DNA from: Pseudoduganella sp.
Lineage (GTDB): Bacteria > Pseudomonadota > Gammaproteobacteria > Burkholderiales > Burkholderiaceae_D
NCBI GenBank assembly: GCA_021323265.1
Contig: JAJTCO010000036.1
Span: forward strand, 1-64,000
Direction: 5' to 3'
DNA: 64,000 bases
The notes beneath the pieces are model-generated. The model was not told the origin of the DNA. It saw nothing but the letters and a program-made list of their open reading frames with translations, and did no database searches. The first letter of the stretch is position 1. The number at the start of each line of letters is the position of its first letter. Of the stretch, positions 4,854-53,531 are shown one piece after another. Made by a program: the position numbers and the translations under genes.

Positions 4854-4906
4854 GCTGACCCCGTGTCCACCAAAGGGTCTGACCCCAAGGTGGACACGGG
4901 GTCAGC
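4854..4906. repeat. REP-like palindromic element, copy 4 (variant ends)
   Basis: A longer palindrome than copies 1-3: arms GCTGACCCCGTGTCCACC / GGTGGACACGGGGTCAGC around the same AAAGGGTCTGACCCCAA core. The right arm contains the TGA stop codon of the YjbR-family gene (4902-4904 on the minus strand), so the element forms that gene's 3' end. Confidence 0.85.
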
Positions 4907-38193: not shown

Positions 38194-39009
38194 TTACTGG
38201 GGCTTGACGAACTTCAGGGTCATGCGGTCGCTTTCGCCGATGGCGGCGTACTTGGCGCGGTCCTTGTCCTTGTTGGTCAGGGTTGGCGGCAGGGCCCAGA
38301 CGCCGTTCTCATGGTTCGCGGTGTCCTTGGCATTGGCGTTCACTTCCGACTTGGCCACCAGCTTGAAGCCGGCCTGCTCGGCCATCTTGATCACATAAGC
38401 TTCGTGCATGTAGCCGGTGCTGGCCTTGGCGTCCTGCGTCATGGCGGCGGGCAGGCGGTGTTCTTCCACGCCAAAGACGCCGCCCGGCTTCAGGCTGTCG
38501 TAAATGCTGGCCATCAGCTTTTTCATGTTCTCCTCGCCGGTACCGATCCAGTTGTGGATGTTGCGGAAGGTGACCACCATGTCGGCGCTGCCCTTGGGCG
38601 CGAAGTTGTACACGCCGTTGGACGGTTCGAAGGCGCCCAGCACGACCTTGTCGCGGCCCGGCTGCTTGGCCAGGAAGTCCTGGAAGCGCTCGGCCGACTT
38701 GCGCACGCGCTCGTCGCCCGACTGCGGGGTGGCGCCGGCGGTGATCAGCTTGCCGTGCTCGCGCAGGTAGGGCGCCAGGATTTCCGTATACCAGCCACCG
38801 CCGGGCGACAGTTCCACCACGGTCATGTTCGGCTTGATGCCGAAGAAGGTCAGGGTTTCATAGGGGTGGCGATACTGGTCGCGCTTGACGTTGTCTGCAT
38901 TGCGGGTCGGGCTGGCGATGGCCGCCTTGAGGGAGGGATCGGCCAATGCTGCGCCGGAGAAACTGGTGAAGCCGACGGCCAACAGGCCGGCCAGGACGTA
39001 CTGTTTCAT
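38194..39009 (-). CDS. Exported SAM-dependent methyltransferase-fold protein
   Basis: A 271-residue protein. A clear signal peptide (MKQYVLAGLLAVGFTSFSGA, cleavage ALA-DP) precedes a Rossmann methyltransferase domain with motif I VVELSPGGGWYTEILAPYL, a GAFEPSNGVYNF segment and a late LKPGGVFGVEEH strand. GAGGAG nine bases before the start fixes the ATG at 39009. Exported methyltransferase-like proteins of this class are widespread but puzzling, because SAM is cytoplasmic. It is upstream of and probably co-transcribed with the binding-protein-like gene. Confidence 0.85.
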   Translation of the reverse strand: MKQYVLAGLLAVGFTSFSGAALADPSLKAAIASPTRNADNVKRDQYRHPYETLTFFGIKPNMTVVELSPGGGWYTEILAPYLREHGKLITAGATPQSGDERVRKSAERFQDFLAKQPGRDKVVLGAFEPSNGVYNFAPKGSADMVVTFRNIHNWIGTGEENMKKLMASIYDSLKPGGVFGVEEHRLPAAMTQDAKASTGYMHEAYVIKMAEQAGFKLVAKSEVNANAKDTANHENGVWALPPTLTNKDKDRAKYAAIGESDRMTLKFVKPQ

Positions 39010-39096
39010 GCGGTAAGTCTCCTCTTTTCGTTGGACAGAGCGACGCGGCGGGTCCGGTCGCCCGAACTTGATGATCGTGCAAGCTGAGCGCCCGGT

Positions 39097-39130
39097 CAAG
39101 TGTCCGCGCGGACAGTCGCGCGGACACTTG
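39097..39130. repeat. Perfect inverted repeat near the methyltransferase promoter
   Basis: CAAGTGTCCGCGCG (39097-39110) and its exact complement CGCGCGGACACTTG (39117-39130) are separated by 6 bases. It lies about 90 bases upstream of the methyltransferase start and abuts a second palindrome. It may be an operator or a REP-like structure. Confidence 0.7.
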
Positions 39131-39145
39131 GCGGACGCCGGAATT

Positions 39146-39210
39146 CGGGGTCAGCTCTGTCAATCGGACATTTCGCTGCGCAAAATGTCCGATTGACAGA
39201 GCTGACCCCG
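39146..39210. repeat. Long REP-like hairpin upstream of the first TldD gene
   Basis: Arms of about 28 bases are near-perfect: CGGGGTCAGCTCTGTCAATC...ACATTT at 39146-39173 and its complement ending GAGCTGACCCCG at 39210, with an 8-base loop. The outer GGGTCAGC part matches the arms of the element at 4854-4906, so it belongs to the same broad family. It lies between the methyltransferase and TldD copy 1. Confidence 0.75.
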
Positions 39211-39224
39211 ACTTTGTTTCAGCT

Positions 39225-39253
39225 TTGTACAAGCTTTACACAATGGCATAAAT
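39225..39253 (+). promoter_or_regulatory. Possible promoter of the TldD/E block
   Basis: TTGTAC (39225-39230), 16-17 bases, then CATAAAT (39247-39253) in an AT-rich stretch 62 bases upstream of the TldD copy 1 start. The hexamers are only moderate matches; position and base composition are the main support. A good GGAGAG ribosome site follows. Confidence 0.35.
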
Positions 39254-39314
39254 ATTGCGTAGGATTGGACTTCTGCAAGCTGTCTTAGGTAATAACGATA
39301 ACCCTGGAGAGACT

Positions 39315-40949
39315 ATGGAACGACGTGCATTCCTCAATCTGAGCGGCGGGGCAATGGCCGCCATGATGATGCCATTTGGCCAAGCCATCGCGGCCGACGA
39401 GCTGATCAAGCCCGTGGAAATGAAGTTCAAGAAGATGCTGGCGGATACCGCCCTGACGGCGGCGACCCAGGCCGGCGCCAGCTATTGCGATGTGCGCATC
39501 GGCCGCTACCTGAACCAGTTCATCACCACCCGCGACCTGAACATCGAGAACGTCACCAATACCGAATCGGCTGGTGTCGGCGTGCGCGTGATCGCCAACG
39601 GCGCGTACGGCTTTGCCGCCACCAGCGACATGTCGCCGGACGGCGTGGCCGGCGCGGCGCGCCAGGCGGTCGCCATCGCCAAGGCCAATGCCAAGCTGCA
39701 GGCAGCGGGCGTGCAGCTGGCCCCGACCCCGGGCGTGGGCGAAGTCTCTTGGGCCACGCCGATCAAGAAGGATTGGCGCACCGTGCCGATCAAGGAAAAG
39801 GCCGACCTGCTGATCACGGCCAACAAGGGGGCGCTGGAAGCGGGTGCTTCCTTCATCCAGTCGTTGCTGTTCCAGGTCAACCAGCAGAAGTATTTCGCCT
39901 CGACCGACGGTTCCTATATCGACCAGGACCTGCACCGCCTGTGGGTGCCGTTCTTCGCCACCGCCGTCGACAAGTCGACCGGCAAGTTCCGCAGCCGCTC
40001 CGACCTGGGTACGCCGGTCGGCATGGGCTACGAATACCTGGACGGCCGCAAGGAAGACAAGATCAGGGCAGCGGGCGGTGTCGCCACGCTGTACAACCGT
40101 TCCTATGACCTGATCGAGGACGCCAAGGCCGCCGGCCGCCAGGCCAAGGAAAAGCTGACCGCCAAGTCGGTCGAGCCGGGCAAGTACGACCTGGTGCTCT
40201 CGCCTGAACACATGTGGCTGACCATCCACGAGTCGGTCGGCCACCCGACCGAGCTCGATCGCGTGCTGGGCTACGAGGCGAACTTCGCCGGCACCTCCTT
40301 CGCCACCCTGGACAAGCAGCAGTCGAAGAAGTTCAAGTACGGCGCCGACATCGTCAACATCGAAGCGGACAAGGTGATCCCGGGCTCGCTGGGCGCGGTG
40401 GGCTACGACGACGAGGGCGTCAAGTGCAAGAAGTGGGACATCATCAAGGACGGCATCCTGGTCAACTACCAGGCCACGCGCGACCAGGCGGCGGTGATCG
40501 GCGAGAAGGAATCGCACGGCTGCTCCTACGCGGACTCCTGGAGCAACGTGCAGTTCCAGCGCATGCCCAACGTCTCGCTCAAGGCGGGCAAGAAAAAGCT
40601 CACGCCGGACGAACTGGTGAAGGACGTCAAGAAAGGCATCTACATCGTGGGCGCCGGTTCCTTCTCGATCGACCAGCAGCGCTACAACTTCCAGTTTGGC
40701 GGCCAGATGTTCTACGAGATCAAGGACGGCAAGATCGGCCAGATGCTGGAGGACGTCGCCTACCAGTCGAACACCCAGGAATTCTGGAACGCCTGCACTG
40801 CCATGTGCGACGAGCGCGATTGGCGCATGGGCGGCTCCTTCTTCGACGGCAAGGGCCAGCCGATGCAGGTGAGCGCGGTGTCGCACGGTTCGTCGACCAC
40901 CCGCTTCAACGGCATCAACGTGATCAACACTGCCCGCAAGATCGGCTGA
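39315..40949 (+). CDS. TldD-type metalloprotease subunit with twin-arginine signal peptide, copy 1
   Basis: A 544-residue protein. Residues 1-27 form a Tat signal: MERRAFLNL with RR at 3-4, a mildly hydrophobic core and an AIAA cleavage site. The mature part is TldD: N-terminal domain with ASYCDVRIGRY, then the zinc motif HESVGH (H305, E306, H310) followed by PTELDRVLGYE, and the C-terminal GEKESHGCSYADSW and SFFDGKGQP segments. E. coli TldD is cytoplasmic and acts with TldE (PmbA) as a heterodimeric peptidase, so export is unusual. TGGAGAG precedes the ATG. It is followed 16 bases later by its TldE partner. Confidence 0.9.
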   Translation: MERRAFLNLSGGAMAAMMMPFGQAIAADELIKPVEMKFKKMLADTALTAATQAGASYCDVRIGRYLNQFITTRDLNIENVTNTESAGVGVRVIANGAYGFAATSDMSPDGVAGAARQAVAIAKANAKLQAAGVQLAPTPGVGEVSWATPIKKDWRTVPIKEKADLLITANKGALEAGASFIQSLLFQVNQQKYFASTDGSYIDQDLHRLWVPFFATAVDKSTGKFRSRSDLGTPVGMGYEYLDGRKEDKIRAAGGVATLYNRSYDLIEDAKAAGRQAKEKLTAKSVEPGKYDLVLSPEHMWLTIHESVGHPTELDRVLGYEANFAGTSFATLDKQQSKKFKYGADIVNIEADKVIPGSLGAVGYDDEGVKCKKWDIIKDGILVNYQATRDQAAVIGEKESHGCSYADSWSNVQFQRMPNVSLKAGKKKLTPDELVKDVKKGIYIVGAGSFSIDQQRYNFQFGGQMFYEIKDGKIGQMLEDVAYQSNTQEFWNACTAMCDERDWRMGGSFFDGKGQPMQVSAVSHGSSTTRFNGINVINTARKIG

Positions 40950-40965
40950 GCGTAAAGGATAAAGG

Positions 40966-42299
40966 ATGAAGATTCTGAATCAGGAAGAGACCAAGCGCAT
41001 CGCCGACAAGGTCATGTCGTTGAGCAAGGCCGACGAATGCATCGTCACCATCAACGGCAGCCGCACCGGCAACATCCGCTACGCGCGCAACGCAGTGTCG
41101 ACGGCGGGCCTGGTGGAAAACACCCAGCTGGCGGTGGCTGTTGCCTTCGGCAAGAAGCAGGGTACCGCCATCATCAACGAGTTCGACGACAAGTCGCTGG
41201 CCAAGGCCGTGCAGCGCGCCGAGGAACTGGCGCGCCTGGCGCCGGAGAATCCGGAGTTCATGCCGACGCCAAGCAGGCGTTCAAGGCGTCCAACACGTTC
41301 AGCAAGTCGACCGACGCCATCGACCCCGCCTACCGCGCCCAGGTGGCGGCCTACAGCATCGAGGCCTGCAAGAAAAAGGGCCTGGTCGCCGCCGGCTTCT
41401 TCACCGACCAGTCCTCCTTTGAAACCGTGGCCAACTCGCGTGGCGTATTCGGTCACCAGAGCCAGACCGGCATCGACTTCACCTGCACCGTGCGCACCGA
41501 AGACGGCCGCGGTTCGGGCTGGGTGCGCCGTGACGCCAACGACGTGAACAGGTTCGACCCGCGCGCCGCGGCGGAAGTGGCGATGGAAAAGGCCATCCGT
41601 TCGGCCGAAGCGAAGGCGCTGGAGCCGGGCCGCTACACCGTGATCCTGGAGCCCGCCGCGACGTCCGACCTGCTGGCGTACATGTTCAACAGCTTCGACG
41701 CGCGTTCGGCCGACGAGGGCCGCAGCTTCCTGGCCAAGAAGGGCGGCGGCAACCGCATGGGCGAGAAGCTGTTCGACGAGCAGGTCAACGTGTGGGCCGA
41801 CCCATGGGACAAGGACGTTCCCGTCCTGCCGTGGGACAACCAGTCCTTGCTGGCGCGCGAGCGCATGGACATCATCAAGAACGGCAAGATCGCCTCGATG
41901 TACTACTCGCCGTTCTGGGCCAAGAAGCAGGGCCAGCGCGCGGTGGGCCTGCCGGGCAACATCATCATGACCGGCGGCTCCAAGTCGACCGAGGAGCTGA
42001 TTGCCTCGACCAAGAAGGGCATCCTGGTGACCCGCACCTGGTACATCCGCATGGTCGACCCGCAGACCGTGCTGCTGACCGGGCTGACGCGCGACGGCAC
42101 CTTCTACATCGAGAACGGCAAGATCAAGCATCCGGTGAAGAACTTCCGCTTCAATGAGAGCCCGGTGTCGATGCTGAACAACATCGAAGAACTGGGCCGT
42201 CCGGAAGTGCTGGCGGGCGACGAGTCGCAATACCAGCTGCTCATTCCGGCCATGAAGGTGCGCGACTTCAACTTCACCTCTTTGTCCGACGCAGTGTAA
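40966..42299 (+). pseudogene. TldE/PmbA-type subunit, copy 1, frameshifted
   Basis: The gene begins normally (MKILNQEETKRIADKV, ribosome site AAAGGATAAAGG) and runs in frame to EFMP at about 41265. It then continues one frame over (KQAFKASNTFSKS...) to the conserved end FNFTSLSDAV at 42299. Against copy 2, the nine bases coding AVG before AAGCAG are replaced by five here (ACGCC), a net loss of four bases. Translation in the first frame would run to 41547 as nonsense. No homopolymer marks the spot. Either a true inactivation or a sequencing error. It has no signal peptide. If intact it would be about 445 residues. Confidence 0.85.
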
Positions 42300-42312
42300 A
42301 CCCGGCAGGGCA

Positions 42313-42336
42313 GGGTCTGACCCAAGGGTCAGACCC
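42313..42336. repeat. Short REP-like palindrome between the two TldD/E pairs
   Basis: GGGTCTGACCC-AA-GGGTCAGACCC, the core of the larger elements at 164-210 and others, sits in the 73-base gap between pair 1 and pair 2. Confidence 0.75.
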
Positions 42337-42372
42337 GGTTTTCCGGGGTCAAAAGTATCTGGAGCAACACAA

Positions 42373-44010
42373 TTGGAACGTAGATCCTTCCTGAAAGTCG
42401 CCGCCGCCACCAGCGGCAGCATGCTGGTCCCCGTCTTCGGCAACGCCATCGCCGCCGAAGACCTGATGAATCCGATGGCACGCAAGTTCAAGAAAGAACT
42501 GGCCGACGCCGCCCTGAACGCCGCCACCAAGGCCGGCGCCAGCTATTGCGACGTGCGCATCGGGCGCTACCTGAACCAGTTCATCACCACCCGCGACACG
42601 CGCGTCGAAAACATCGTCAACACCGAATCGACCGGTGTCGGCGTGCGCGTGATCGCCAATGGCGCCTATGGCTTCGCCGCCACCAATGCGCTAAGCGTGG
42701 ACGCGGTGGCCGACGCCGCGCGCCAGGCAGTGGCCATTGCGCGCGCCAACGCCCGTCTGCAGACGGCGCCGGTGCAGCTGGCGCCGGTCAAGGGCGTGGG
42801 CGAAGTGGCATGGCAGACGCCTTTCAAGAAGGACTGGCGCGCCGTGCCGGTCAAGGAAAAGGCCGACATGCTGCTGGCCGCGAACAAGGCGGGCCTGGAG
42901 GCCGGCGCGTCGTTCATGACGTCCAGCCTGTTCCAGGTCAACCAGCAGAAGTACTTCGCTTCCACCGACGGCTCCTACATCGACCAGGACGTGCACCGCC
43001 TGTGGTCCCCGTTCACCGCCACCGCCGTGGACAAGGCCAGCGGCAAGTTCCGCACGCGCGACGGCCTGTCCTCGCCGGCCGGCATGGGCTTCGAGTTCTT
43101 CGACGCCAGGCCGGAACACAAGGTGCGTGCGGCGGGCGGCGTGACGCAGCTGTACAACGGCGGCTACGACATCATCGAAGACGCCAGGGCCGCCGGCAAG
43201 CAGGCGCGCGAAAAGCTGTCGGCCAAGTCGGTCGAGCCGGGCAAGTACGACCTGGTGCTCTCGCCGGAACACCTGTTCCTGACCATTCACGAGAACGTCG
43301 GCCACGCCACGGAGCTGGACCGCGTACTGGGCTATGAAGCCAACTACGCCGGCACCTCGTTCGCCACGCTGGACAAGTGGAAGGGCAAGAACTTCAAGTA
43401 CGGCGCCGACATCGTCAATTTCTTCGCCGACAAAACCACGCCCGGTTCGCTGGGCAACGTGGGCTACGACGACGAGGGTGTGGCGTCGAAGAAATGGGAC
43501 ATCATCCGCAACGGCGTGCTGGTGAACTACCAGGCCACGCGCGACCAGGCCCACATCATCGGCGAGAAGGAATCGCACGGCTGCTCCTACGCCGATTCCT
43601 GGAGCAGCGTGCAGTTCCAGCGCATGCCCAACATTTCGCTGGAAGCGGGCAAGAAGGCCATGACGCCGGACGACATGGTCAAGGACGTGAAGAAGGGCAT
43701 CTACATCCTGGGCCGCGGCTCCTATTCGATCGACCAGCAGCGCTACAACTTCCAGTTCGGCGGCCAGCTGTTCTACGAAATCAAGGACGGCAAGGTCGGC
43801 CAGATGCTCAACGACGTGGCCTACCAGTCGAACACGCAGGAATTCTGGAATTCCTGCTCGGCCATCTGCGACCAGCGCGACTGGCGCATGGGCGGCTCGT
43901 TCTTCGACGGCAAAGGCCAGCCAAGCCAGGTCAGTGCCGTATCGCACGGTTCCTCGACCACCCGCTTCAACGGCATCAATGTGATCAATACTGCCCGCAA
44001 GATTGACTAA
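42373..44010 (+). CDS. TldD-type metalloprotease subunit with twin-arginine signal peptide, copy 2
   Basis: A 545-residue protein, a close paralogue of the copy at 39315, aligning end to end with conserved zinc motif HENVGH (H306, E307, H311). The N-terminus ERRSFLKVAAA is a perfect Tat consensus (RRxFLK) with an AIAAED cleavage region. The start is a TTG, supported by GGAG eight bases upstream and by alignment with copy 1. It is followed 9 bases later by an intact TldE partner. The differences from copy 1 are spread along the length, so the duplication is not recent. Confidence 0.9.
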   Translation: MERRSFLKVAAATSGSMLVPVFGNAIAAEDLMNPMARKFKKELADAALNAATKAGASYCDVRIGRYLNQFITTRDTRVENIVNTESTGVGVRVIANGAYGFAATNALSVDAVADAARQAVAIARANARLQTAPVQLAPVKGVGEVAWQTPFKKDWRAVPVKEKADMLLAANKAGLEAGASFMTSSLFQVNQQKYFASTDGSYIDQDVHRLWSPFTATAVDKASGKFRTRDGLSSPAGMGFEFFDARPEHKVRAAGGVTQLYNGGYDIIEDARAAGKQAREKLSAKSVEPGKYDLVLSPEHLFLTIHENVGHATELDRVLGYEANYAGTSFATLDKWKGKNFKYGADIVNFFADKTTPGSLGNVGYDDEGVASKKWDIIRNGVLVNYQATRDQAHIIGEKESHGCSYADSWSSVQFQRMPNISLEAGKKAMTPDDMVKDVKKGIYILGRGSYSIDQQRYNFQFGGQLFYEIKDGKVGQMLNDVAYQSNTQEFWNSCSAICDQRDWRMGGSFFDGKGQPSQVSAVSHGSSTTRFNGINVINTARKID

Positions 44011-44019
44011 GGACGCGAC

Positions 44020-45354
44020 ATGAAACTTCTGAGCAAGGACGAAGCAAAAAGCATCTGCGACAAAGTGATGGCCATGTCCAAGGCCGACGAATGCCGCATC
44101 AACCTGAGCGGCAGCCGCAAGGGCAACGTGCGTTACGCGAACAACAGCGTATCGACCGCCGGCCAGATCGAGGACACGACCCTGGTGGTGAGCGTCGCCT
44201 TCGGCAAGAAGCAGGGCTCTGCCACCTGCAACCAGTTCGACGCCAAGTCCCTGGAAGCGGCCGTGCGCCGCGCGGAGGAAGTGGCGCGCCTGGCGCCGGA
44301 AAATCCCGAGTTCATGCCGGCCGTCGGCAAGCAGGACTTCAAGGCCAGCAACACCTTCAACCGCAATGCCGACGCGTTCAATCCGGATTTCCGCGCCGAC
44401 GTCGCCTTCGCCAGCATCGATGCGGCAAAGAAGGCGGGCCTGCAGGCTGCGGGCTTCTTCAACGACAGCATGGGCTTTGACTGCATCGCCAACTCCAACG
44501 GCGTGTTCGGCTACCAGCAGCTGGCGGGCATGAACTTCACCGTGACCACGCGCACCAACGACGGCCGTGGTTCGGGCTGGGTGAGCCGCGCCGCTTACGA
44601 TCCCAAGGCCTTCGACGCGCGCGCCGTATCGGACATCGCGATCGAGAAGGCGCTGCGTTCGGTCGACGCCAAGGCGCTGGAGCCGGGCCGCTACACGGTG
44701 GTGATGGAACCGGCCGCCACCAACGACCTGCTGAACTTCATGTTCAACGCCTTCGACGCGCGTTCCGCCGACGAGGGCCGCAGCTTCCTGTCCAAGAAGG
44801 GCGGCGCCAACCGCCTGGGCGACAAGCTGTTCGACGAGCAGGTCAACGTCTGGACCGACCCGTGGGACGCCAACGCGCCCGTGCTGCCGTGGGACCAGGG
44901 CTCGATGCAGGCGCGCGCGCGCCGCGACCTGATCAAGGGCGGCGTGATCACTTCGCTCGACTACAACCGTTACTGGGCGCAGAAGCAGGGCAAGGCCGCC
45001 ACGCCGCCGGCGGGCAACATCATCATGGCCGGCGGTTCGCGCTCGACCGAGGAGCTGATTGCCTCGACCAAGAAGGGCATCCTGGTGACCCGCACCTGGT
45101 ACATCCGCATGGTGGACCCGCAATCGGTGGCGCTGACCGGCCTGACCCGCGACGGCACCTTCTACATCGAGAACGGCAAGATCAAGCACCCGATCAAGAA
45201 CTTCCGCTTCAACGACAGCCCGGTGTCGATGCTGAACAACATCGACGAGCTGGGCCGCCCGGTGCTGATCGGCGACACCGACGCGCGCAAGCTGATGATT
45301 CCGGCCATGAAGGTGCGCGACTTTAACTTTACGTCGTTGTCGGATGCGGTGTAA
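44020..45354 (+). CDS. TldE/PmbA-type subunit, copy 2 (intact)
   Basis: A 444-residue protein with the same ends as copy 1: MKLLSKDEAKSICDKV at the start and FNFTSLSDAV at the end. It has the PmbA-type central region DARSADEGRSFL and GDKLFDEQVNVWTDPW, and the late IMAGGSRSTEELIASTKKGILV segment. It lacks the zinc motif, as TldE proteins do, and has no signal peptide. AAGGA precedes the ATG. It is presumably the non-catalytic partner of the TldD encoded just upstream; export would require riding with that Tat-tagged subunit. Confidence 0.9.
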   Translation: MKLLSKDEAKSICDKVMAMSKADECRINLSGSRKGNVRYANNSVSTAGQIEDTTLVVSVAFGKKQGSATCNQFDAKSLEAAVRRAEEVARLAPENPEFMPAVGKQDFKASNTFNRNADAFNPDFRADVAFASIDAAKKAGLQAAGFFNDSMGFDCIANSNGVFGYQQLAGMNFTVTTRTNDGRGSGWVSRAAYDPKAFDARAVSDIAIEKALRSVDAKALEPGRYTVVMEPAATNDLLNFMFNAFDARSADEGRSFLSKKGGANRLGDKLFDEQVNVWTDPWDANAPVLPWDQGSMQARARRDLIKGGVITSLDYNRYWAQKQGKAATPPAGNIIMAGGSRSTEELIASTKKGILVTRTWYIRMVDPQSVALTGLTRDGTFYIENGKIKHPIKNFRFNDSPVSMLNNIDELGRPVLIGDTDARKLMIPAMKVRDFNFTSLSDAV

Positions 45355-45364
45355 CGCCGGTAAA

Positions 45365-45396
45365 CCAGTGTCAGACCCACGGGGTCCGACACTTGG
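45365..45396. repeat. REP-like palindrome after the TldD/E block, first of two
   Basis: CCAGTGTCAGACCC...GGGGTCCGACACTTGG, an imperfect inverted repeat with the GTCAGACCC core of the family, begins 10 bases after the TldE stop. Confidence 0.75.
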
Positions 45397-45414
45397 CCCG
45401 CGACCGCCGCTGAC

Positions 45415-45443
45415 CAGTGTCTGACCCTGTGGGTCAGACACTG
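45415..45443. repeat. REP-like palindrome after the TldD/E block, second of two
   Basis: CAGTGTCTGACCC-TGT-GGGTCAGACACTG is a perfect inverted repeat of the same core, 17 bases before the DUF4159 gene. Together with the element at 45365 it may act as a weak terminator or an RNA-stabilising structure inside the cluster. Confidence 0.8.
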
Positions 45444-45460
45444 CCTTACCGGGTTAAAAG

Positions 45461-46081
45461 ATGCCAGCCTACGATTTCTACTTCACCCGCCTGACCTACG
45501 AGTCAGGCGACTGGGACGTCGACATACGCATGCCGAGCAACGTGCTCAACTCCCTGGTCGAATACACGACCCTGAAAGTTGACCCCGTCGAGCGCATCGT
45601 CGCGCTGTCCGACCCGAAGATGCTGGAAGCGCCGTTCTGCTACCTGGCCGGCCACAAGCTGGTGCAGTTCACGCCGGCCGAACGGAAGAACTTCGAGCGC
45701 TACGTGAAGGGCGGCGGCTTCGTCTTCGTCGACGACTGCAACCACGACATCGACGGCCTGTTCGCGAAGTCGTTCGAAGCGGAAGTGGCAAGGATCTTCG
45801 GCGCCAAGGCGCTGCACAAGATCCCGAACAACCACCCGTTGTACTCGGCCTTCTTCAAGTTCGACGGCCCGCCCAACACCGGGATGGAGCTCAATGGCTG
45901 GGGCGACGACCTGGTGCACGACTACCTGAAGGCCGTGGAGTTCAACGGCCGCATCAGGCTTTTGTATAGCAACAAGGACTATGGCTGCGAGTGGGACTAT
46001 GACTTTCGCAACAAGCGCTGGCTGGCGATCGACAACACGCGCTTCGCAGTCAACATCATTCAATACGCGTTGGGAGCATGA
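45461..46081 (+). CDS. DUF4159-domain protein
   Basis: A 206-residue protein covering one DUF4159 domain: FYFTRLTYESGDWDVDI at the start, the APFCYLAGH strand, GGGFVFVDDCNHD in the middle and WLAIDNTRFAVNIIQYALG at the end. The fold is class I glutamine-amidotransferase-like without its catalytic triad, as far as can be seen. There is no signal peptide or membrane segment here, although many family members have one. Its stop overlaps the MoxR start by 4 bases. First gene of the tight MoxR operon. Confidence 0.88.
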   Translation: MPAYDFYFTRLTYESGDWDVDIRMPSNVLNSLVEYTTLKVDPVERIVALSDPKMLEAPFCYLAGHKLVQFTPAERKNFERYVKGGGFVFVDDCNHDIDGLFAKSFEAEVARIFGAKALHKIPNNHPLYSAFFKFDGPPNTGMELNGWGDDLVHDYLKAVEFNGRIRLLYSNKDYGCEWDYDFRNKRWLAIDNTRFAVNIIQYALGA

Positions 46082-47079
46082 CCGTGGCTGAAAGCGGCTG
46101 GAGCGAGAACGAAATCGGCGTACTGCACGCCAGGATCAAGGCACTGAAGGCCAGCATGGGCCGTGTCATCATCGGCCAGGAGGAGGTGGTCGATTCGCTG
46201 ATCATCTGCCTGCTGGGCGGCGGCCACGCCTTGGTGGAAGGCGTGCCGGGGTTGGGCAAGACGCTGCTGGTGAAGTCGCTGGCGCAGGCCACCGACATGC
46301 AGTTCCGCCGCGTGCAGTTCACGCCGGACCTGATGCCGTCCGATATCGTCGGCACCGAGATCCTGGAAGAGGACCATGCGACGAAGAAGCGCGAGTTCCG
46401 CTTCCAGCAAGGCCCGGTGTTCACCCAGGTGCTGCTGGCGGACGAGATCAACCGCGCCCCGCCCAAGACGCAATCGGCGCTGCTCGAAGCGATGCAGGAG
46501 CGCTCGGTGACCTTCGCCGGCCAGACGCACAAGCTGCCGCGCCCCTTCTTCGTACTGGCGACGCAGAATCCGATCGAGCAGGCCGGCACCTACCCGCTGC
46601 CCGAAGCGCAGCTGGACCGCTTCCTGCTCCACATCGACGTCGGCTACCCGACCGAAGACGAGGAGATCGCCATGGTGTCGGCCACCACGCACGCCGGCCT
46701 GAAGGACGCCGAGCCGGCCATGGACGTGGAGACCCTGCTGCGCCTGCAGGCGCTGGTGCGCGACATTGAGATCGGCGAGCACCTGCTGCGCTACGCGACG
46801 CGTCTGGTGCGCGCCACCCGGCCGCGCGAAACCTCGGTCGAGGCCGTGAAGAAGCACGTCGGATGGGGCGCCGGTCCCCGCGCCGGCCAGGCGCTGGTGC
46901 TCGCCTCCAAGGCGCGCGCGCTGATGCAGGGCCGCCTGGCGGTAACGCGCGAAGACATCGGCCACATGCTGCTGCCGGTGCTGGCGCACCGCGTGCTGCG
47001 CAACTTCGAGGCGGAAGCGGACGGCATCGCCATTGCCGACATCCTGGCCGCACTGCGCGACGCGATCAAGCCCGAATAA
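46078..47079 (+). CDS. MoxR-family AAA+ ATPase
   Basis: A 333-residue protein with Walker A GVPGLGKT (residues 55-62), Walker B LLADEINRAPPKTQ, sensor 1 LATQNPIEQAGTYPLPEAQLDRF and a C-terminal lid domain. MoxR ATPases act as chaperones that insert metals or mature enzyme complexes, working with VWA-domain partners. The start overlaps the DUF4159 gene (ATGA) and the DUF58 gene follows after 4 bases. Position next to TldD/E suggests the protease complex as a client (inference). Confidence 0.93.
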   Translation: MTVAESGWSENEIGVLHARIKALKASMGRVIIGQEEVVDSLIICLLGGGHALVEGVPGLGKTLLVKSLAQATDMQFRRVQFTPDLMPSDIVGTEILEEDHATKKREFRFQQGPVFTQVLLADEINRAPPKTQSALLEAMQERSVTFAGQTHKLPRPFFVLATQNPIEQAGTYPLPEAQLDRFLLHIDVGYPTEDEEIAMVSATTHAGLKDAEPAMDVETLLRLQALVRDIEIGEHLLRYATRLVRATRPRETSVEAVKKHVGWGAGPRAGQALVLASKARALMQGRLAVTREDIGHMLLPVLAHRVLRNFEAEADGIAIADILAALRDAIKPE

Positions 47080-47083
47080 GCCG

Positions 47084-47974
47084 ATGCTGGAAACACCTGC
47101 GCTGCTGGCGCATTCCGCCGACCTTGAGCTGGTGATCCGCCACGTGCTGGCCGGTCTTGGCCATGGCATCCATGCGGGCCGCGAACGCGGCGCCGGCGTC
47201 GAGTTCTCCGAGTACCGTGCCTACGCGCCCGGCGACGAATGGCGCCGCGTGGACTGGAAGCTGCTCGCGCGCGCCGACCGCTATTACGTGCGCGAGGCGG
47301 AGCGCGACAGCCATGTCGCGACCTGGCTGGTGCTGGACGCCACGGCCTCGATGGCCGAACCGAGCCGCCGCGTGGACGGCTTGAGCAAGCACTGGTACGC
47401 GCGCACGGCGCTGGCCTGCGTGGCCGCCATTGCCCAGCGCCAGGGCGACGCCTTCGGATTGCTGGTGCTGTCCGGTGGCCGGGTCGAGTTCACGCCGGCG
47501 TCGCGCGGGCCGCGCCACCTGCAGCGCGTGCTGGCCGCGCTGCAAAGGGCCACGCCTTCCGGCGAGCTGCCGGACGCGGAGACGCTGCGCGCCAGCCTGC
47601 ACTTCGCGCGCGCGCAAAGCATGGTGTTCGCCGCCAGCGACGCGCTGGACTGGCCGTCGCCGCTGGGCGAGGCGCTGATCCGCCTGCGCCACATGCGGCA
47701 CGACGTGCGGCTGCTGGCCTTGCGCACCGAAGCCGAAGTGGCGGCGGAGTTACCCGCCGGTCACGCCTATCGCGATCCAGAGAAGGGCGCCGGCCTGCAT
47801 AGCTTCAGCCGCGCCGTGCGCGACGATTACCGCACGGCGCTCGAAGCCCACTTCGAGGCCGTGCGCACTGCCTGCCGCCAGCACGACGTGCCCCTGTGCG
47901 AGGCGCAGGTCGAGCAGCCGCTGGGCGAAGTGCTGCGCGCCTGGCTGCGCAACCCGGAGGCGCGCCGCCCATGA
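47084..47974 (+). CDS. DUF58-domain protein (VWA-like MoxR partner)
   Basis: A 296-residue protein. The DUF58 signature is present: GRERGAGVEFSEYRAYAPGDEWRRVDWKLLAR, then a VWA-like strand with VLDATASM (MIDAS-type DxTxS). It is the usual companion of MoxR. Soluble, with no membrane segment evident. The ATG at 47084 follows the MoxR stop by 4 bases. Its stop overlaps the next gene (ATGA). Confidence 0.9.
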   Translation: MLETPALLAHSADLELVIRHVLAGLGHGIHAGRERGAGVEFSEYRAYAPGDEWRRVDWKLLARADRYYVREAERDSHVATWLVLDATASMAEPSRRVDGLSKHWYARTALACVAAIAQRQGDAFGLLVLSGGRVEFTPASRGPRHLQRVLAALQRATPSGELPDAETLRASLHFARAQSMVFAASDALDWPSPLGEALIRLRHMRHDVRLLALRTEAEVAAELPAGHAYRDPEKGAGLHSFSRAVRDDYRTALEAHFEAVRTACRQHDVPLCEAQVEQPLGEVLRAWLRNPEARRP

Positions 47975-48960
47975 CGAGCATGCAGCCATTGTGGTGGTTC
48001 GCCTTGCCGGTGCTGCTGCTGCCCGTGTGGTGGCACATGCGCAAGCGCGAGCGCACGCGCACCGACCTGCTGGCCACGGCCCGCTTCCTGCCGGCCGCCG
48101 CGCCGCAGCAGCAGCGCATCCCGCGCTGGTCCGACGTGCTGCTGCTGTTGACGCGCCTGGCCCTGCTGGCCGTGCTGATCGCATGGCTGGCGGTGCTGAC
48201 CATGCCGTGGAAGGGCGATACGGTGTTCGTCGCCGCCGGCCTGGAACGCACGGAATGGGCCGAACGGCAGATCCGATCGGCAGGCATGGACGGCGCGGCG
48301 CGCCAGCCGCTGCCGGCCGACGTGTGGAACTGGCTGGCCCGCAACGAACACGAATGGCGTCCCGGCGCGCGCCTGCTCATCCTGGCCCCGCACGCCGCCA
48401 TGCCCGCCTTGCCGCCGCGCCTGGCCCACGACGCCGAACTGCGCCTGGCGCCCGCGCCATCGGCCGCCCCGGCGGCGCCGCGCGAACGGCACGTGGTGGT
48501 CGTGGCGCCGGCCGAGCGCATGGCGCGCTGGCAGGCCTTGTTCGCCGCATTCGCTACCGCAGGCGAAGGCGCCCAGCGCTACATCCTCGGCGACTCGCCG
48601 ACGCCGGCCACGGAACTGATCGTGTGGGACAAGCCCGATGCCCAGGCACCGGCAGACTGGAAAGCACCCCTCTGGTGGCGCACCGCAAGCACCGAAGGGG
48701 AGACGCAGGGCAAGCAAGGTCTCACCTGGACTGCGCCGCAATGGCCGCTGCAGGACGTGGACGCCGCACGCGCCCTGTACGAGCGCTGGCAGGCCGCGAC
48801 AGCCCGTCCCGCCGCCTACCCGATGCCTGCGCAGGCGATCAAGGCCGCGCGCCGCGCCGCGCTGCCGGCGCCGCTGGCCCGTTCCCCGGAATGGCTTGCC
48901 ATCGCCCTGCTGGCGCTGTTCGCACTTGAAAGGACCCTGAGCCATGTCCGCCGCCGCTGA
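47971..48960 (+). CDS. BatA-like N-terminal membrane protein without a VWA domain
   Basis: A 329-residue protein. The N-terminus matches the aerotolerance-regulator BatA region: MQPLWWFALPVLLLPVWWHMRKRERTR with a helix, then RIPRWSDVLLLLTRLALLAVLIAWLAVL as a second helix. A periplasmic or cytosolic domain of about 200 residues follows without the DxSxS motif of VWA proteins, and a last helix lies at 305-320 (WLAIALLALFALE). It may scaffold the complex at the membrane. ATGA overlap with DUF58; the next gene starts 17 bases before its stop. Confidence 0.75.
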   Translation: MTSMQPLWWFALPVLLLPVWWHMRKRERTRTDLLATARFLPAAAPQQQRIPRWSDVLLLLTRLALLAVLIAWLAVLTMPWKGDTVFVAAGLERTEWAERQIRSAGMDGAARQPLPADVWNWLARNEHEWRPGARLLILAPHAAMPALPPRLAHDAELRLAPAPSAAPAAPRERHVVVVAPAERMARWQALFAAFATAGEGAQRYILGDSPTPATELIVWDKPDAQAPADWKAPLWWRTASTEGETQGKQGLTWTAPQWPLQDVDAARALYERWQAATARPAAYPMPAQAIKAARRAALPAPLARSPEWLAIALLALFALERTLSHVRRR

Positions 48961-51013
48961 CCAACTGGCCGGCGTGCGCCAGCGCATGCTGCAAGCCCTG
49001 ATCCGGCGCCGCGCCGCGAGCTGGCTGCTGCCGCTGCTGCCGGCGGCGGCGCTGGGCGCGGCCATCCTTGCCGGGACCGGGGCATTGCCGCTGACGGTGC
49101 CGCTCGCATTGGCCGCGGCGGTGCTGCTGTGGGCCGCCGCCGACTTCGCCTTCTGGCGCGCGCGCCTGGAACGCCAGCTGCCCGCATGGCTGAACGACGC
49201 CGTGCCCGAGCTGGAAGACAGCAGCGCCATGCTGGCCGCCGCGCCAGCCACGCCCCTGGGCGCGCTGCAGCGCCAACGCCTGCTGGCGCGCGTCGACACC
49301 GCGCTGGACGACGAGCGCCTGCGCGCCATCGCCGTGCGGAAGGCCCGTTTCAACGCCATCCCGCTTGCCCTGGCCGCCGTGGCGGCCGCCGGCGCATGGG
49401 CCTACGGCGCCGCGCATTCGCCGCAGCGCATCGCTACGCCCGGCGGCAGCGAAGCGGCCAAGGCCGCCATCGCCCGGGCCGGCATCAGCCTGCACGCCAT
49501 GCCGCCCGCCTACACCGGCGCCAAGCCAAGCGAAGGCGCGCCGCGCGACCTGCAAGTGCCGCAGCACAGCAAGCTGCTCTGGTGCGCCCACGGCGCCGAT
49601 GCCGTGATCGAACTGAGCGACGGCCGCGTGCTGCAGGCGGCGCAGGGCGCATGCGCCGAGCTGCAGGCCAGCGACTCCATCTTCTGGCGCAGCCGCAAGG
49701 AGCCGGGTAACCGCTACACGGTCCGCGTCACGCCGGACCAGGCGCCGCAAGTGGCGATCACCACGCCGGGCGAATCGGTCACCGTCCTCAAGCCCGATGC
49801 GCAAAGCGCGCAGATCGCTGTCAGCGTCAGCGACGACTACGCCATCACCCGTGCCACGCTGCACATGACGCTGGCGCGCGGCAGCGGAGAGAACATCCGT
49901 TTCACCGACAAGGAAAGCCCGCTGCCGGCGTCGGCCGATCCGCGCAAGCGCAGCTGGAACCGGCAATGGATGCTGAAGGAGCTCGGCATGGAGCCGGGCG
50001 ATGAACTGTACTTCTTCGTGCGCGCCAGCGACAACGCGCCGGTGCCGCACATTGCCCAGTCGCCGACCTACACGCTGCGCCTGCCCGGCACGCAGGGCGA
50101 AGCGCTGGAATCGACCGCGCTGCCCTCGATGGTGAAGCCGGAGAACCTGCGCAGCCAGCGCCAGATCATCATCGATACCGAACAGCTGGTGGCCGACATG
50201 CCGCGCCTCGCGGCGGCCGAACTGCGCGCCCGCAGCGAGAAGATCGCCGGCGACCAGGCCAAGCTGCGCCTGCGCTACGGCCAGTTCCTGGGCGAGGAGT
50301 CTTCCCTGTTCGGCGAAGAGGAGCACAGCGAGGGCGACGGCCACGAGCACGGCGGCGGCGGGGCAGGCGGCCCGACGCAGGGTGCGGGCGGCTTCGGCAC
50401 GGGCGACATTGCCGCGCAGTTCGGTCATGCCCACGACCAGGAAGGCAACGCCACCATCTTCGACCCCGCCACCAAGGAAGTGCTGCGGCGTGCCCTGGCC
50501 GCCATGTGGGACGCGGAGAAGCAGTTGCGCGCGATCGCGCCCAAGCCGGCACTGCCGCCGGAATACAAGGCACTGGGCGCCATCAAGGAGTTGCAGCAGG
50601 CCGAGCGCGTCTACCTGCACCGCACGGCTTTCGTGCCGCCGGCCATCAAGGAAGAGAAGCGCATGAGCGGCGACATGGCAGGCGCCGCGAGCTACCGCCG
50701 CGCGCAGGGCACCGCCAGCGAGTTCGTGCCGGCCGACGTGCGCGAGCTGGTGCAGGCGCTCGGTGGCGACGGCGCGCTGCCGGCGCTGTGGAGCAAGCCG
50801 GCGCGTGCGGCAGTGGCCCGCCTCGCCGATGAAGAACAACGACTGGCCGCGCAGGCTGCGGTGCAGGATGTGGCCGACGGTTGCCAGCCCTGCCGCGCGA
50901 AGCTGCGCGCCTGGCTGCGCGCAACGGTGCAGCAGCCGGCCGTGCTGCTGCAGGCGCGTCCGCAGGCGCAGACGCGTTTTGGCCAGGCCTTGCAAGGGAA
51001 GGGAGCGCCGTGA
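48944..51013 (+). CDS. DUF4175-family membrane protein
   Basis: A 689-residue protein. Two N-terminal hydrophobic segments (about residues 28-70) and a third near 140-160 precede a large extracytoplasmic region: a beta domain (YTVRVTPDQAPQVAITTPGE...) and a helix-rich part with SEKIAGDQAKLRLRYGQFLGEE. A low-complexity His/Gly/Glu-rich insert follows (EGDGHEHGGGGAGG), which could bind metal. DUF4175 proteins belong to MoxR/BatA neighbourhoods; the function is unknown. The start overlaps the previous gene by 17 bases. Confidence 0.8.
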   Translation: MSAAADQLAGVRQRMLQALIRRRAASWLLPLLPAAALGAAILAGTGALPLTVPLALAAAVLLWAAADFAFWRARLERQLPAWLNDAVPELEDSSAMLAAAPATPLGALQRQRLLARVDTALDDERLRAIAVRKARFNAIPLALAAVAAAGAWAYGAAHSPQRIATPGGSEAAKAAIARAGISLHAMPPAYTGAKPSEGAPRDLQVPQHSKLLWCAHGADAVIELSDGRVLQAAQGACAELQASDSIFWRSRKEPGNRYTVRVTPDQAPQVAITTPGESVTVLKPDAQSAQIAVSVSDDYAITRATLHMTLARGSGENIRFTDKESPLPASADPRKRSWNRQWMLKELGMEPGDELYFFVRASDNAPVPHIAQSPTYTLRLPGTQGEALESTALPSMVKPENLRSQRQIIIDTEQLVADMPRLAAAELRARSEKIAGDQAKLRLRYGQFLGEESSLFGEEEHSEGDGHEHGGGGAGGPTQGAGGFGTGDIAAQFGHAHDQEGNATIFDPATKEVLRRALAAMWDAEKQLRAIAPKPALPPEYKALGAIKELQQAERVYLHRTAFVPPAIKEEKRMSGDMAGAASYRRAQGTASEFVPADVRELVQALGGDGALPALWSKPARAAVARLADEEQRLAAQAAVQDVADGCQPCRAKLRAWLRATVQQPAVLLQARPQAQTRFGQALQGKGAP

Positions 51014-52716
51014 GCGTGGACATCAACCTGCTGTGCGGCGGCGCCGCCGTGGCCGGGGCGCTGAGCGCCCTGCTGTATGGGCGCCGCAAGCGCTGGCCCG
51101 AAGCCGCGCTGGCTGCCGTGGCGGGCCTGTCGCTGGCGGCAGTGCTGGCCGCGCCGGCCACCCAGGGCGGTGCGGGCGGCGCAGTCGTCATCGACAGCGA
51201 AGCGTGGAACCAGGCGGGCGATGCATCGGCATCCGTGGCGCCGGGCGACGGACTGGCCGCGGCGCTGGCGGCCTTACCGCAGGCGCCGGCGGTGCAAGTC
51301 AAGGGCCACGGCCTGTACGAAGCGCAATGGCGCGACGTACCGGCGCGTGCGCTGCAATGGCAGCCGTCGCAGGATGGTTTGCTGTGGCTGGAATTTCCGC
51401 GCGCGCTGCCGCTGGGCCGCAGCTTCGCGCTGACGGCGCGGCGCGGGGGCCAGGCGCAGCCGGGCTGGCGCTTGCAGCTGCTGGCGGAGAATGGACAGGT
51501 GCTGGCCGAGGCGCGCGCCACGCTGGCGGCAGCGGCGCTGACCGTGCAGTGGCAGCCGCCGATGGCCGAATCGATGGTGCTGCAGGCGCGCTTGCTGGAC
51601 AAGGACGGCAAGAGCATCGCGCAAGGCCCGGTGCCCCTGCGCGTGCTGGAGGCGGTGCCGCTGCAGGTGCAGGGGCGCTTCGGCGCGCCGTCGTTCGACA
51701 CGCGCGCGCTGAACCAGCTGCTGACCGACTCGGGCGCGATCGTCGACTGGCAGACCACGCTGGGTAAGTCGCTTACCCGCAGCGAGGAGGCGCGCGCGCC
51801 GCTGGCGCAGCCGAACGCCTTGCTGGCCGATGCGGCGTGGCTAGAACGGGGCGGCCTGCGCGCCGCGCTGGCGCAGGTGGCGCACGGCGTGCCGCTGCTG
51901 GTCCTGGGCGGCAATGCCGACGATGCGCCGTTCTGGCAGCGAGAGCTGGGGCTGCGCCTTGCCGCGCAATCGGCCACCACGGAACAGGAGGACGTACGCC
52001 ACGTGGCGCACGGTGCGGCCACGCTGGCCCTGGCGCCGGGCGCGCAGTTGCCGGTGGCCGGCGGCGGCGCCGGCTGGCAGATAGCGGCGCGCGACAAGGA
52101 CGGCAAGCCATGGCTGTGGCAGCGCGACTGGCAGCGCGGACGCATCGTGTGGCTGGGCGTGCGTGACTGGCATCGTCATGCCATCAGCGAACCGGCGGCG
52201 CTGGGCGCCTGGTGGCAGCAGGTGATGGATTTGGCCGCAACCGGCAGCGAACAGAAGGTGCGCTGGATCGATGCGCAGCCGATGCCGCTGGCCGGCCTGC
52301 GCGGCGAAGTATGTGCGCAGGGTGTGGCAAGCGGCGCCGCGGTCAGCGTGGGACAGGAAACCTTGCGCTGGCAGGCGCGCAGCGAACGCGCCGACGCGGC
52401 GTGCGTCGCAGTCTGGCCGCGCAAGGCCGGCTGGATGCAGCTTGCCAGCGGCGAGGCACACAGCGAGATGTACGTGTTCGGCGCGCAGGACTGGCCGGCA
52501 TGGCAGGCGGCCCAGCGGCATGACGCGACGGCGCGCCATGCCGCCCGCGCCGCGCAGCCTGTCGCGCAGGCGCGGGCGCCGGAAGCCGCTTCGGCGGCAG
52601 GGCAAGCCGCGGCAAGCGCCTGGCTGGCACCGCTGGCCGGAGCGTTGCCGCGTTGGCTGCTGGCGCTGGCCTTCATGGCCAGCATGCTGGCGCTGTGGTG
52701 GCGCGAGCGACGCTGA
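51010..52716 (+). CDS. Membrane protein of unknown function, last gene of the MoxR operon
   Basis: A 568-residue protein starting at GTG 51010, overlapping the DUF4175 stop (GTGA), with AAGGGAAGGGAG as ribosome site. Two helices near the N-terminus (about 5-50), a large beta-rich and Rossmann-like middle (VLGGNADDAPFW, reminiscent of glutamine-amidotransferase-like domains in similar operons), and a single C-terminal helix (LALAFMASMLALWW) followed by RERR. No motif gives an enzyme activity. Downstream genes are unrelated. Confidence 0.7.
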   Translation: MSVDINLLCGGAAVAGALSALLYGRRKRWPEAALAAVAGLSLAAVLAAPATQGGAGGAVVIDSEAWNQAGDASASVAPGDGLAAALAALPQAPAVQVKGHGLYEAQWRDVPARALQWQPSQDGLLWLEFPRALPLGRSFALTARRGGQAQPGWRLQLLAENGQVLAEARATLAAAALTVQWQPPMAESMVLQARLLDKDGKSIAQGPVPLRVLEAVPLQVQGRFGAPSFDTRALNQLLTDSGAIVDWQTTLGKSLTRSEEARAPLAQPNALLADAAWLERGGLRAALAQVAHGVPLLVLGGNADDAPFWQRELGLRLAAQSATTEQEDVRHVAHGAATLALAPGAQLPVAGGGAGWQIAARDKDGKPWLWQRDWQRGRIVWLGVRDWHRHAISEPAALGAWWQQVMDLAATGSEQKVRWIDAQPMPLAGLRGEVCAQGVASGAAVSVGQETLRWQARSERADAACVAVWPRKAGWMQLASGEAHSEMYVFGAQDWPAWQAAQRHDATARHAARAAQPVAQARAPEAASAAGQAAASAWLAPLAGALPRWLLALAFMASMLALWWRERR

Positions 52717-52742
52717 GCCGAAAGCTATGCTAATGTCGGGCC

Positions 52743-53531
52743 ATGAAAGCGATCGACGAATTCAGGGCCGGGGACGGCTTCAAATTGCGCGACAAGGACG
52801 CCCAGGCCCGCGGTGAGCCGGACAAGGAGCGTCTCGACCAGCTGCTCGATGAGATTTCCGACCTGCAGGAGATGTTGTACGCCGAGCGCCAACGCAAGGT
52901 GCTGATCGTCCTGCAAGGCATGGACACTTCCGGCAAGGACGGGACCCTGCGCTCGCTGTTTAGCAAGATCAATCCCATGGGACTGCGCGCCACGGCCTTC
53001 AAGGCGCCCACCGAGATCGAGGCAGGCCACGATTTCCTGTGGCGCGTGCACCGCGAAGTGCCGAAGGCCGGCGAGATTGGCGTCTTTAACCGCAGCCATT
53101 ACGAGGACGTGCTGATCACGCGCGTGCTGGGCCAGGTCACGCCGGCCGAATGCAAGCGCCGCTACGCGCAGATCCGCGATTTCGAACGCATGCTGGCCGA
53201 AAGCGGCACCACCATCGTCAAGCTCTTCCTGCACATTTCGAAGGACGAACAGCGGGAACGCCTGCAGGCGCGCGCCGACAATCCGAAAAAGCACTGGAAG
53301 TTCGACCCGTCCGACATGAAGCAGCGCGAACACTGGGGCGCCTACCAGAAAGCCTACGCGGACGCCATCGCGGCGACCGACGCCGCCCATGCGCCCTGGT
53401 ACGTGGTGCCGGCCGACTCTAAGCCCTACCGCAACGAGGTCGTGGCGCGCCTGGTGCTGGAAACCCTGCGCGGCATGAAGCTGGACTGGCCGCCGCCCGA
53501 CAAGCGCCTGCTCAAGCTCAAGGTGCGCTGA
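52743..53531 (+). CDS. PPK2-family polyphosphate kinase
   Basis: A 262-residue protein with Walker A QGMDTSGKDG (residues 58-67), the Walker-B-like FNRSHYEDVLITRV segment, the lid KKHWKFDPSDMKQREHWGAY and the closing PWYVVPADSKPYRNEVVARLV. Length and motifs fit the single-domain PPK2 group that phosphorylates AMP or ADP from polyphosphate. No ribosome site is obvious. It ends 14 bases inside the convergent PNPOx-fold gene. Confidence 0.92.
   Translation: MKAIDEFRAGDGFKLRDKDAQARGEPDKERLDQLLDEISDLQEMLYAERQRKVLIVLQGMDTSGKDGTLRSLFSKINPMGLRATAFKAPTEIEAGHDFLWRVHREVPKAGEIGVFNRSHYEDVLITRVLGQVTPAECKRRYAQIRDFERMLAESGTTIVKLFLHISKDEQRERLQARADNPKKHWKFDPSDMKQREHWGAYQKAYADAIAATDAAHAPWYVVPADSKPYRNEVVARLVLETLRGMKLDWPPPDKRLLKLKVR

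Follow-up and report, generated by a model that had tools for sequence, protein, structure and literature searches.

The TldD/TldE protease of Escherichia coli degrades unfolded peptides, and His262, His267 and Cys454 are the metal ligands in its structure (PMC5810440). The same enzyme cleaves the leader of a ribosomally synthesized and post-translationally modified peptide (RiPP) (PMC10885120). Bat operons have been described with DUF58, VWA and TPR domains (PMC11834572), and the Pseudomonas aeruginosa clusters studied in the protection against interbacterial antagonism include one with a MoxR-like ATPase and a VWF protein (PMC8926400). In Stenotrophomonas maltophilia, an operon encoding two TldD, a putative protease, a MoxR-like ATPase, a membrane protein and three hypothetical proteins (NIPOLPBK_01784-01792), some genes of which are down in biofilm in all isolates, is called not yet characterized; the passage on this operon does not mention Tat signals (PMC7688217). 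Here, we analyzed a stretch of 64,000 nucleotides from Pseudoduganella sp. (GCA_021323265.1, contig JAJTCO010000036.1; hereafter the window), in which two tldD-tldE pairs are followed by six tightly packed genes for DUF4159, MoxR, DUF58, BatA-like, DUF4175 and orphan membrane proteins (Table 1). MoxR, DUF58 and DUF4159 also constitute the operons of the alphaproteobacterial RL3499-RL3502 type; the title of a Rhizobium study cited in PMC4287336 ties that operon to cell morphology and envelope integrity. Our favored reading, held with about as much confidence as doubt, is that the window encodes, as a single conserved operon, a periplasmic TldD/E protease system that is assembled inside the cell and exported via the twin-arginine translocation (Tat) pathway.

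Both TldD proteins of the window start with (M/L)ERRxFL, an N-terminal RRxF(L/I) motif followed by an uncharged stretch, and both TldE proteins start at the domain. The first-pass annotation had described this arrangement together with the run of six genes, and Pfam, motif reading and the relatives confirm it. Relatives were collected in a one-genome-per-species survey with at least 598 pattern matches, 585 of them confirmed; the best 80 of the 585 correspond to 79 loci, which as best-scoring matches lean to close relatives. Matches of TldD, TldE and DUF4159 covering less than 60% of the query were left out, and Tat signals were judged by motif scan and reading by eye. RRxF(L/I) is present in 33/33 TldD copies from 20 loci. 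Conservation of the motif in orthologs, proposed earlier as a test, holds for 129 of the 132 TldD copies in the survey loci (pattern RRx[FL][LIVMAFC]; the exceptions are two RRxFN and one KRKDFL). TldE starts at its domain, with neither Tat motif nor N-terminal extension, in 115/115 survey copies and 27/27 further copies. HExxGH is found in 165/165 TldD matches and HExxxH in 0/142 TldE proteins. The earlier inference that TldE travels as a hitchhiker is supported by this pattern, a Tat motif being absent from TldE in 142/142 copies and nearly always present on TldD. TatC, the Tat component looked for, is encoded in the genome (E 8.8e-68). Judged from these sequence features, export of TldD by Tat is likely.

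In Oxalobacteraceae and in the listed Bacteroidota, the DUF4159 protein starts at its domain. Among Pseudomonadota outside Oxalobacteraceae, most members carry a hydrophobic leader, with an RRxFL-type motif in some cases and a single arginine in some; these leaders may be Tat or Sec signals. Since most of these members carry a leader of their own, DUF4159 would reside in the same compartment as TldD.

The first-pass annotation spoke of complete zinc-protease domains in both TldDs. All three PmbA/TldD domains are indeed present in TldD1, TldD2 and TldE2 (Pfam), but two features had been overlooked: in this assembly the tldE1 frame is broken, with domain 1 in one frame and domains 2-3 in another, and the third metal ligand is Asp. 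TldE1 and TldE2 are both continuous in 8/8 close relatives compared, and the break may be real or a sequencing error. At the position of Cys454, window TldD2 has Asp512 in place of the Cys. Asp is likewise found in 161/161 Tat-clade rows covering this position and in 37/37 further Tat rows, the divergent L173 and L188 included; as the survey loci and the other loci overlap in part (L042 and L135 lie on contigs of equal length, 80834), the count of distinct sequences is 196/196. The rows without a Tat motif, scored as such by motif pattern, have Cys in 58/58 cases, including L075, the nearest non-Tat relative, and in 53/53 when five very distant rows with poor alignment around the ligand (L239-L243) are set aside. 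Alignments of fewer than 200 (TldD) or 380 (TldE) columns were left out, as were 4 of 165 TldD rows that do not reach the ligand, and the non-Tat comparison used the 30 of 61 matches that were listed as loci, the second match set likewise being limited to loci. Because Asp replaces Cys as third metal ligand, the TldD of this operon is, as aligned, a variant of the E. coli type rather than an ordinary representative. The L239-L243 proteins are distant Bacteroidota TldD-like proteins with HEIFGH, perhaps a second, separately exported TldD branch.

In a quick tree without bootstrap, a branch with support 97 separates the Tat rows from the rest, with L075 as their neighbor, and the rows from Pseudomonadota group together (support 99) among those from Bacteroidota. 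Long branches were flagged, L075 and L188 among these, and two incomplete rows were left out. The signal and the ligand switch look like a single linked event.

Linkage of the Tld genes to the downstream block extends well beyond the family. The survey loci come from Oxalobacteraceae, from Gammaproteobacteria (e.g., Luteimonas, Microbulbifer, Nevskia, Colwellia, and Alteromonas) and from Bacteroidota (e.g., Dyadobacter, Spirosoma, Pontibacter, Pedobacter, and Aquimarina). By tblastn, the 79 loci contain DUF4159 (69), MoxR (68), DUF58 (67), DUF4175 (65), the last gene (58) and the BatA-like gene (57). DUF4159, MoxR and DUF58 occur together in 67/79 loci, and in 66 all three follow the Tld genes on a single strand; intervening genes are possible, and two Pontibacter loci (L140, L142) have them ahead of DUF58. 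That TldD/E stands beside the MoxR operon, as the first-pass annotation expected of related genomes, thus applies to 66/79 loci in related and distant genomes, with exceptions. Among the ten loci without DUF4159, five are from short contigs or from the ends of contigs (L088, L108, L139, L145, L158) and five have TldD/TldE without the operon (L111, L116, L123, L125, L149). Four of the latter genomes have DUF4159, MoxR and DUF58 with their own TldD/TldE pair at another region; the fifth (G457, Bacteroidota) has the block from DUF4159 to the last gene without Tld genes within the 17 kb examined.

In the family sample (60 genomes, own included) TldD2 was matched in 22, nine of which have the close kind (at least 78% identity) in two copies each and 13 only TldDs of 30-37%; the ten-gene order is kept in all eight close relatives besides the window. 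In the Pseudomonadota sample (397 genomes, own included) a TldD of at least 64% is present in 13 genomes and one of 43% in one more (G224); beyond these 14 genomes, no TldD match passed E 1e-65. Outside the own family, all 12 regions examined, from 11 of the 13 genomes, have TldD, TldE, DUF4159, MoxR, DUF58 and DUF4175 together, region ends allowed for, and the G224 region (L075) has TldD and TldE only. DUF4159 is present in 126/397 genomes, as a stand-alone protein (207-299 residues) in 13 and within frames of 578-1253 residues in 113. The 13 genomes with the stand-alone form are exactly the 13 with the close Tat-TldD, an exclusive pairing that is valid for the Pseudomonadota sample only. A second, higher-scoring stand-alone DUF4159 type was seen in Bacteroidota genomes (L161-L166, L192; E ~1e-64 to 1e-78).

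The less biased Bacteroidota sample comprised 198 genomes, centre genome included, with TldD in 20. Of the 19 regions examined (centre left out), 17 have a TldD of at least 62%. DUF4159 and MoxR accompany it in ten of these 17; three others have BatA, DUF4175 and the last gene in a different order, and one has the last gene only, at the edge, with DUF4159 ~8 kb from the nearest TldD in that genome. Order, motif and linkage recur in two phyla, and the gene cluster is not due to chance. As a conserved set, the eight families suggest an envelope machine dedicated to cutting peptides.

Gene dosage of the Tld pairs varies. A second tldE was not seen in L101 (Telluria antibiotica) and L102 (Massilia rhizosphaerae), and in Luteimonas (L122, L141, L147) a single tldE follows two tldD, so that two TldDs may share one TldE. 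In genome G375 (L068, L069), the far end of the operon carries an additional solo tldD in reverse orientation.

The bodies of the BatA-like, DUF4175 and orphan proteins are predicted to be periplasmic by the positive-inside rule and alignment-averaged hydropathy; the averages replaced single-sequence hydropathy, which had missed some segments. The BatA-like protein has two N-terminal hydrophobic segments and one C-terminal segment. For DUF4175, hmmscan of the window protein alone was blank, and the label was for that reason taken as unsupported; orthologs and the genome search overturned this and upheld the original assignment, with 40.5 bits vs. a cut-off of 27.3 for PF13779 in the genome search and a match at E 0.01 for 19/40 aligned sequences. 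HxH[DEG] is found in 63/63 operon DUF4175 proteins vs. 1/24 others (two of 65 operon frames, being cut or short, and one of the 25 comparison loci L253-L277 were left out), and the top His count per 60 residues is 3-14 in the operon proteins and 1-4 in the others, with slight overlap. The predicted structure model of the DUF4175 protein has a pTM of 0.49. For the orphan protein, no Pfam family exceeded the cut-off; whole-chain Foldseek matches were weak (query-length TM-score 0.11-0.25 in the 50 rows shown) and were discarded, and sensible structural matches were obtained for the GATase1/ThuA-like and Ig-like parts only. No VWA or TPR match was obtained in the BatA-like, DUF4175 and last proteins scanned, the scan covering part of the genes and loci.

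From these data we infer the following course, including the substrate and the role of MoxR. Metal uptake by TldD and its closing on TldE would take place in the cytoplasm, with MoxR and DUF58, in which membrane segments were not found, aiding or proof-reading assembly. The folded pair would then be exported by Tat with TldE as hitchhiker, joined in the window's family by DUF4159, and would act on the periplasmic side of the inner membrane, next to the bodies of the BatA-like, DUF4175 and orphan proteins that are predicted to lie there. Zinc could be supplied or sensed by the His-containing loop of DUF4175, and the chamber would trim unfolded peptides or protein stretches in the envelope, much as the E. 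coli enzyme acts in the cytoplasm. A peptide-trimming or quality-control protease of the periplasm, assembled in the cytoplasm, is the best-supported candidate function. The interpretation in the first-pass annotation is thus partly supported, namely for motif, linkage and hitchhiking; the ligand switch and the DUF4175 HxH motif, which it did not include, add further support.

Several observations weigh against this reading. Export is argued from signals in the sequence; these signals are short, a clear AxA site is wanting in many Bacteroidota TldD copies, and some copies from the further Bacteroidota regions have RK in place of RR. The L239-L243 proteins keep Cys, yet several of them start with Sec-like leaders. 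A Cys ligand may therefore be compatible with a place outside the cytoplasm, and the ligand change may follow the Tat clade rather than export as such. Because the Tat clade is one branch, signal and ligand change would count as one linked event that has since been kept, not as many. Three of the 17 Bacteroidota regions with TldD of at least 62%, and two divergent Tat members (L173, L188; 44-53%), have no operon gene in the region examined. The target of MoxR is a guess, and nothing points to the substrate.

Among the alternatives, we consider it improbable, though worth most attention, that this is an envelope-integrity MoxR operon of the RL3499-RL3502 kind, with exported TldD/E as one client or accessory rather than its purpose. 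The Rhizobium title would fit, as would the 113 of 126 DUF4159-positive Pseudomonadota genomes that have DUF4159 within long frames and lack a close Tat-TldD, and the Tld-free block of G457. Against it, stand-alone DUF4159 never occurs without Tat-TldD in the Pseudomonadota sample, and the HxH motif of DUF4175 accompanies the TldD operon. More doubtful still is a cross-membrane, ATP-driven protease, in which MoxR and DUF58 inside would act through the BatA-like, DUF4175 and orphan proteins on the exported TldD/E chamber, in zinc loading or gating; if true, such a machine would be an energy-controlled protease for the ATP-free periplasm. Somewhat less probable again is a protease that matures a secreted ribosomal peptide from another locus, whose leader would be trimmed after export: TldD/E cuts leaders from several RiPPs without being encoded in their clusters (PMC10885120), but constant partners in many unrelated families argue, weakly, for a general task (the open reading frame listing of five loci had a 70-residue floor). 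We give little credence to the Tat-like N-terminus as a mere tether to the inner membrane face, with the complex working in the cytoplasm. The short n-regions and weak cleavage sites of Bacteroidota TldD copies are in keeping with a tether, and the redox argument is weakened by the Cys that distant, apparently Sec-exported relatives have at this ligand position; the restriction of the ligand switch to the Tat clade, the leaders of the DUF4159 partners and the predicted periplasmic bodies of the membrane partners speak against it. Least likely is a hydrolase or N-deacetylase acting on envelope material instead of a peptidase, to which the ligand altered across the whole Tat clade, a review title naming TldD/TldE N-deacetylases and the GATase1/ThuA-like domain of the orphan protein might point; against it, HExxxH and all three domains are retained, and in some metallopeptidases Asp is a usual third ligand.

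Table 1. Genes of the TldD/E operon in the window.
Feature	Position	Strand	Remarks
tldD1	39315..40949	+	Tat signal MERRAFLN; three PmbA/TldD domains; HESVGH
tldE1	40966..42299	+	TldE-type partner without signal; frame broken once in this assembly
tldD2	42373..44010	+	TTG start; Tat signal ERRSFLK; HENVGH; Asp512 aligns with E. coli TldD Cys454
tldE2	44020..45354	+	Partner without HExxxH and without signal
DUF4159 protein, stand-alone, 206 residues	45461..46081	+	Pfam E 4e-49; without signal here
MoxR AAA+ ATPase (AAA_3)	46078..47079	+	Pfam E 1e-65; without transmembrane segment
DUF58 (vWA-like)	47084..47974	+	Pfam E 4e-34; without transmembrane segment; alternative TTG start at 47033
BatA-like membrane protein	47971..48960	+	BatA N-terminal domain, E 6e-6
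DUF4175 membrane protein	48944..51013	+	Beta domains; predicted periplasmic body; low-confidence His-containing loop with HxH (H495, H497)
Orphan membrane protein	51010..52716	+	Ig-like part and GATase1/ThuA-like domain (model residues ~215-414); predicted periplasmic body

The assembly has 4.68 Mb in 149 contigs, is ~83% complete by estimate and carries the operon on contig C131. The six genes had been called overlapping: their order stands, and neighboring genes overlap at four of the five boundaries between DUF4159 and the last gene, the MoxR/DUF58 junction being an overlap or a gap of a few bases depending on the DUF58 start chosen. Promoter and terminator scans of 39000-53000 gave matches at chance level only. 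An inverted repeat (39142-39214; 35 bases, 94% complementary, 3-base loop) lies ~100 bases upstream of tldD1. A dispersed palindrome around GGGTCTGACCC has 13 matches, both strands counted, vs. 1.4 expected (181-193, 770-782, 1304-1316, 4874-4886, and 42312-42337), with one pair between tldE1 and tldD2. Upstream of tldD1, a divergent gene (38194-39060; SAM-methyltransferase-like by eye) stands beside the operon in 26/31 Oxalobacteraceae survey loci, two of the misses being contig-end cuts. A viral origin was considered and rejected, as a viral-contig scan with the TldD alignment gave 33 pattern matches and zero relatives.

The families themselves are known; the exported branch, the ligand change and the steady partners mark the system as a variant. 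TldD/E has so far been known as a cytoplasmic peptidase behind several RiPPs, to which the exported branch would add a periplasmic protease. If true, our favored reading would provide a natural example of Tat hitchhiking by a second subunit that never bears a signal itself, and a testable client for MoxR/DUF58/DUF4175 proteins. The Cys-to-Asp change with the Tat clade makes a simple, checkable prediction on the adaptation of a metal enzyme to another compartment.

In open-licence PMC full texts, which most subscription papers lie outside, we found no description of the system beyond the S. maltophilia passage and no mention of DUF4159. Compared by gene description only, the S. maltophilia operon NIPOLPBK_01784-01792 is probably the same system (PMC7688217). 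The P. aeruginosa cluster also encodes a MoxR-like ATPase, without relatedness to the window system being implied (PMC8926400). The Bat operon and MRP-type MoxR systems of Bacteroidota share MoxR, DUF58 and the BatA N-terminal domain with the window; the operon proteins scanned here included no separate VWA or TPR protein, and TldD/E, DUF4159 and DUF4175 are present. The RL3499-RL3502 type has three families in common with it, but there DUF4159 forms part of the long frames found in 113 sampled genomes, whereas in the window it stands alone beside Tat-TldD/E. E. coli TldD/TldE (PmbA; MEROPS M103, PDB 5NJ5) has the same three PmbA/TldD domains, HExxxH in TldD only, and a paired TldE. The window system differs from it in the Tat signal, in Asp for Cys454 and in the operon with MoxR, DUF58 and membrane proteins, and the genome carries a further, canonical TldD on contig C21, apart from the TldDs of the operon.

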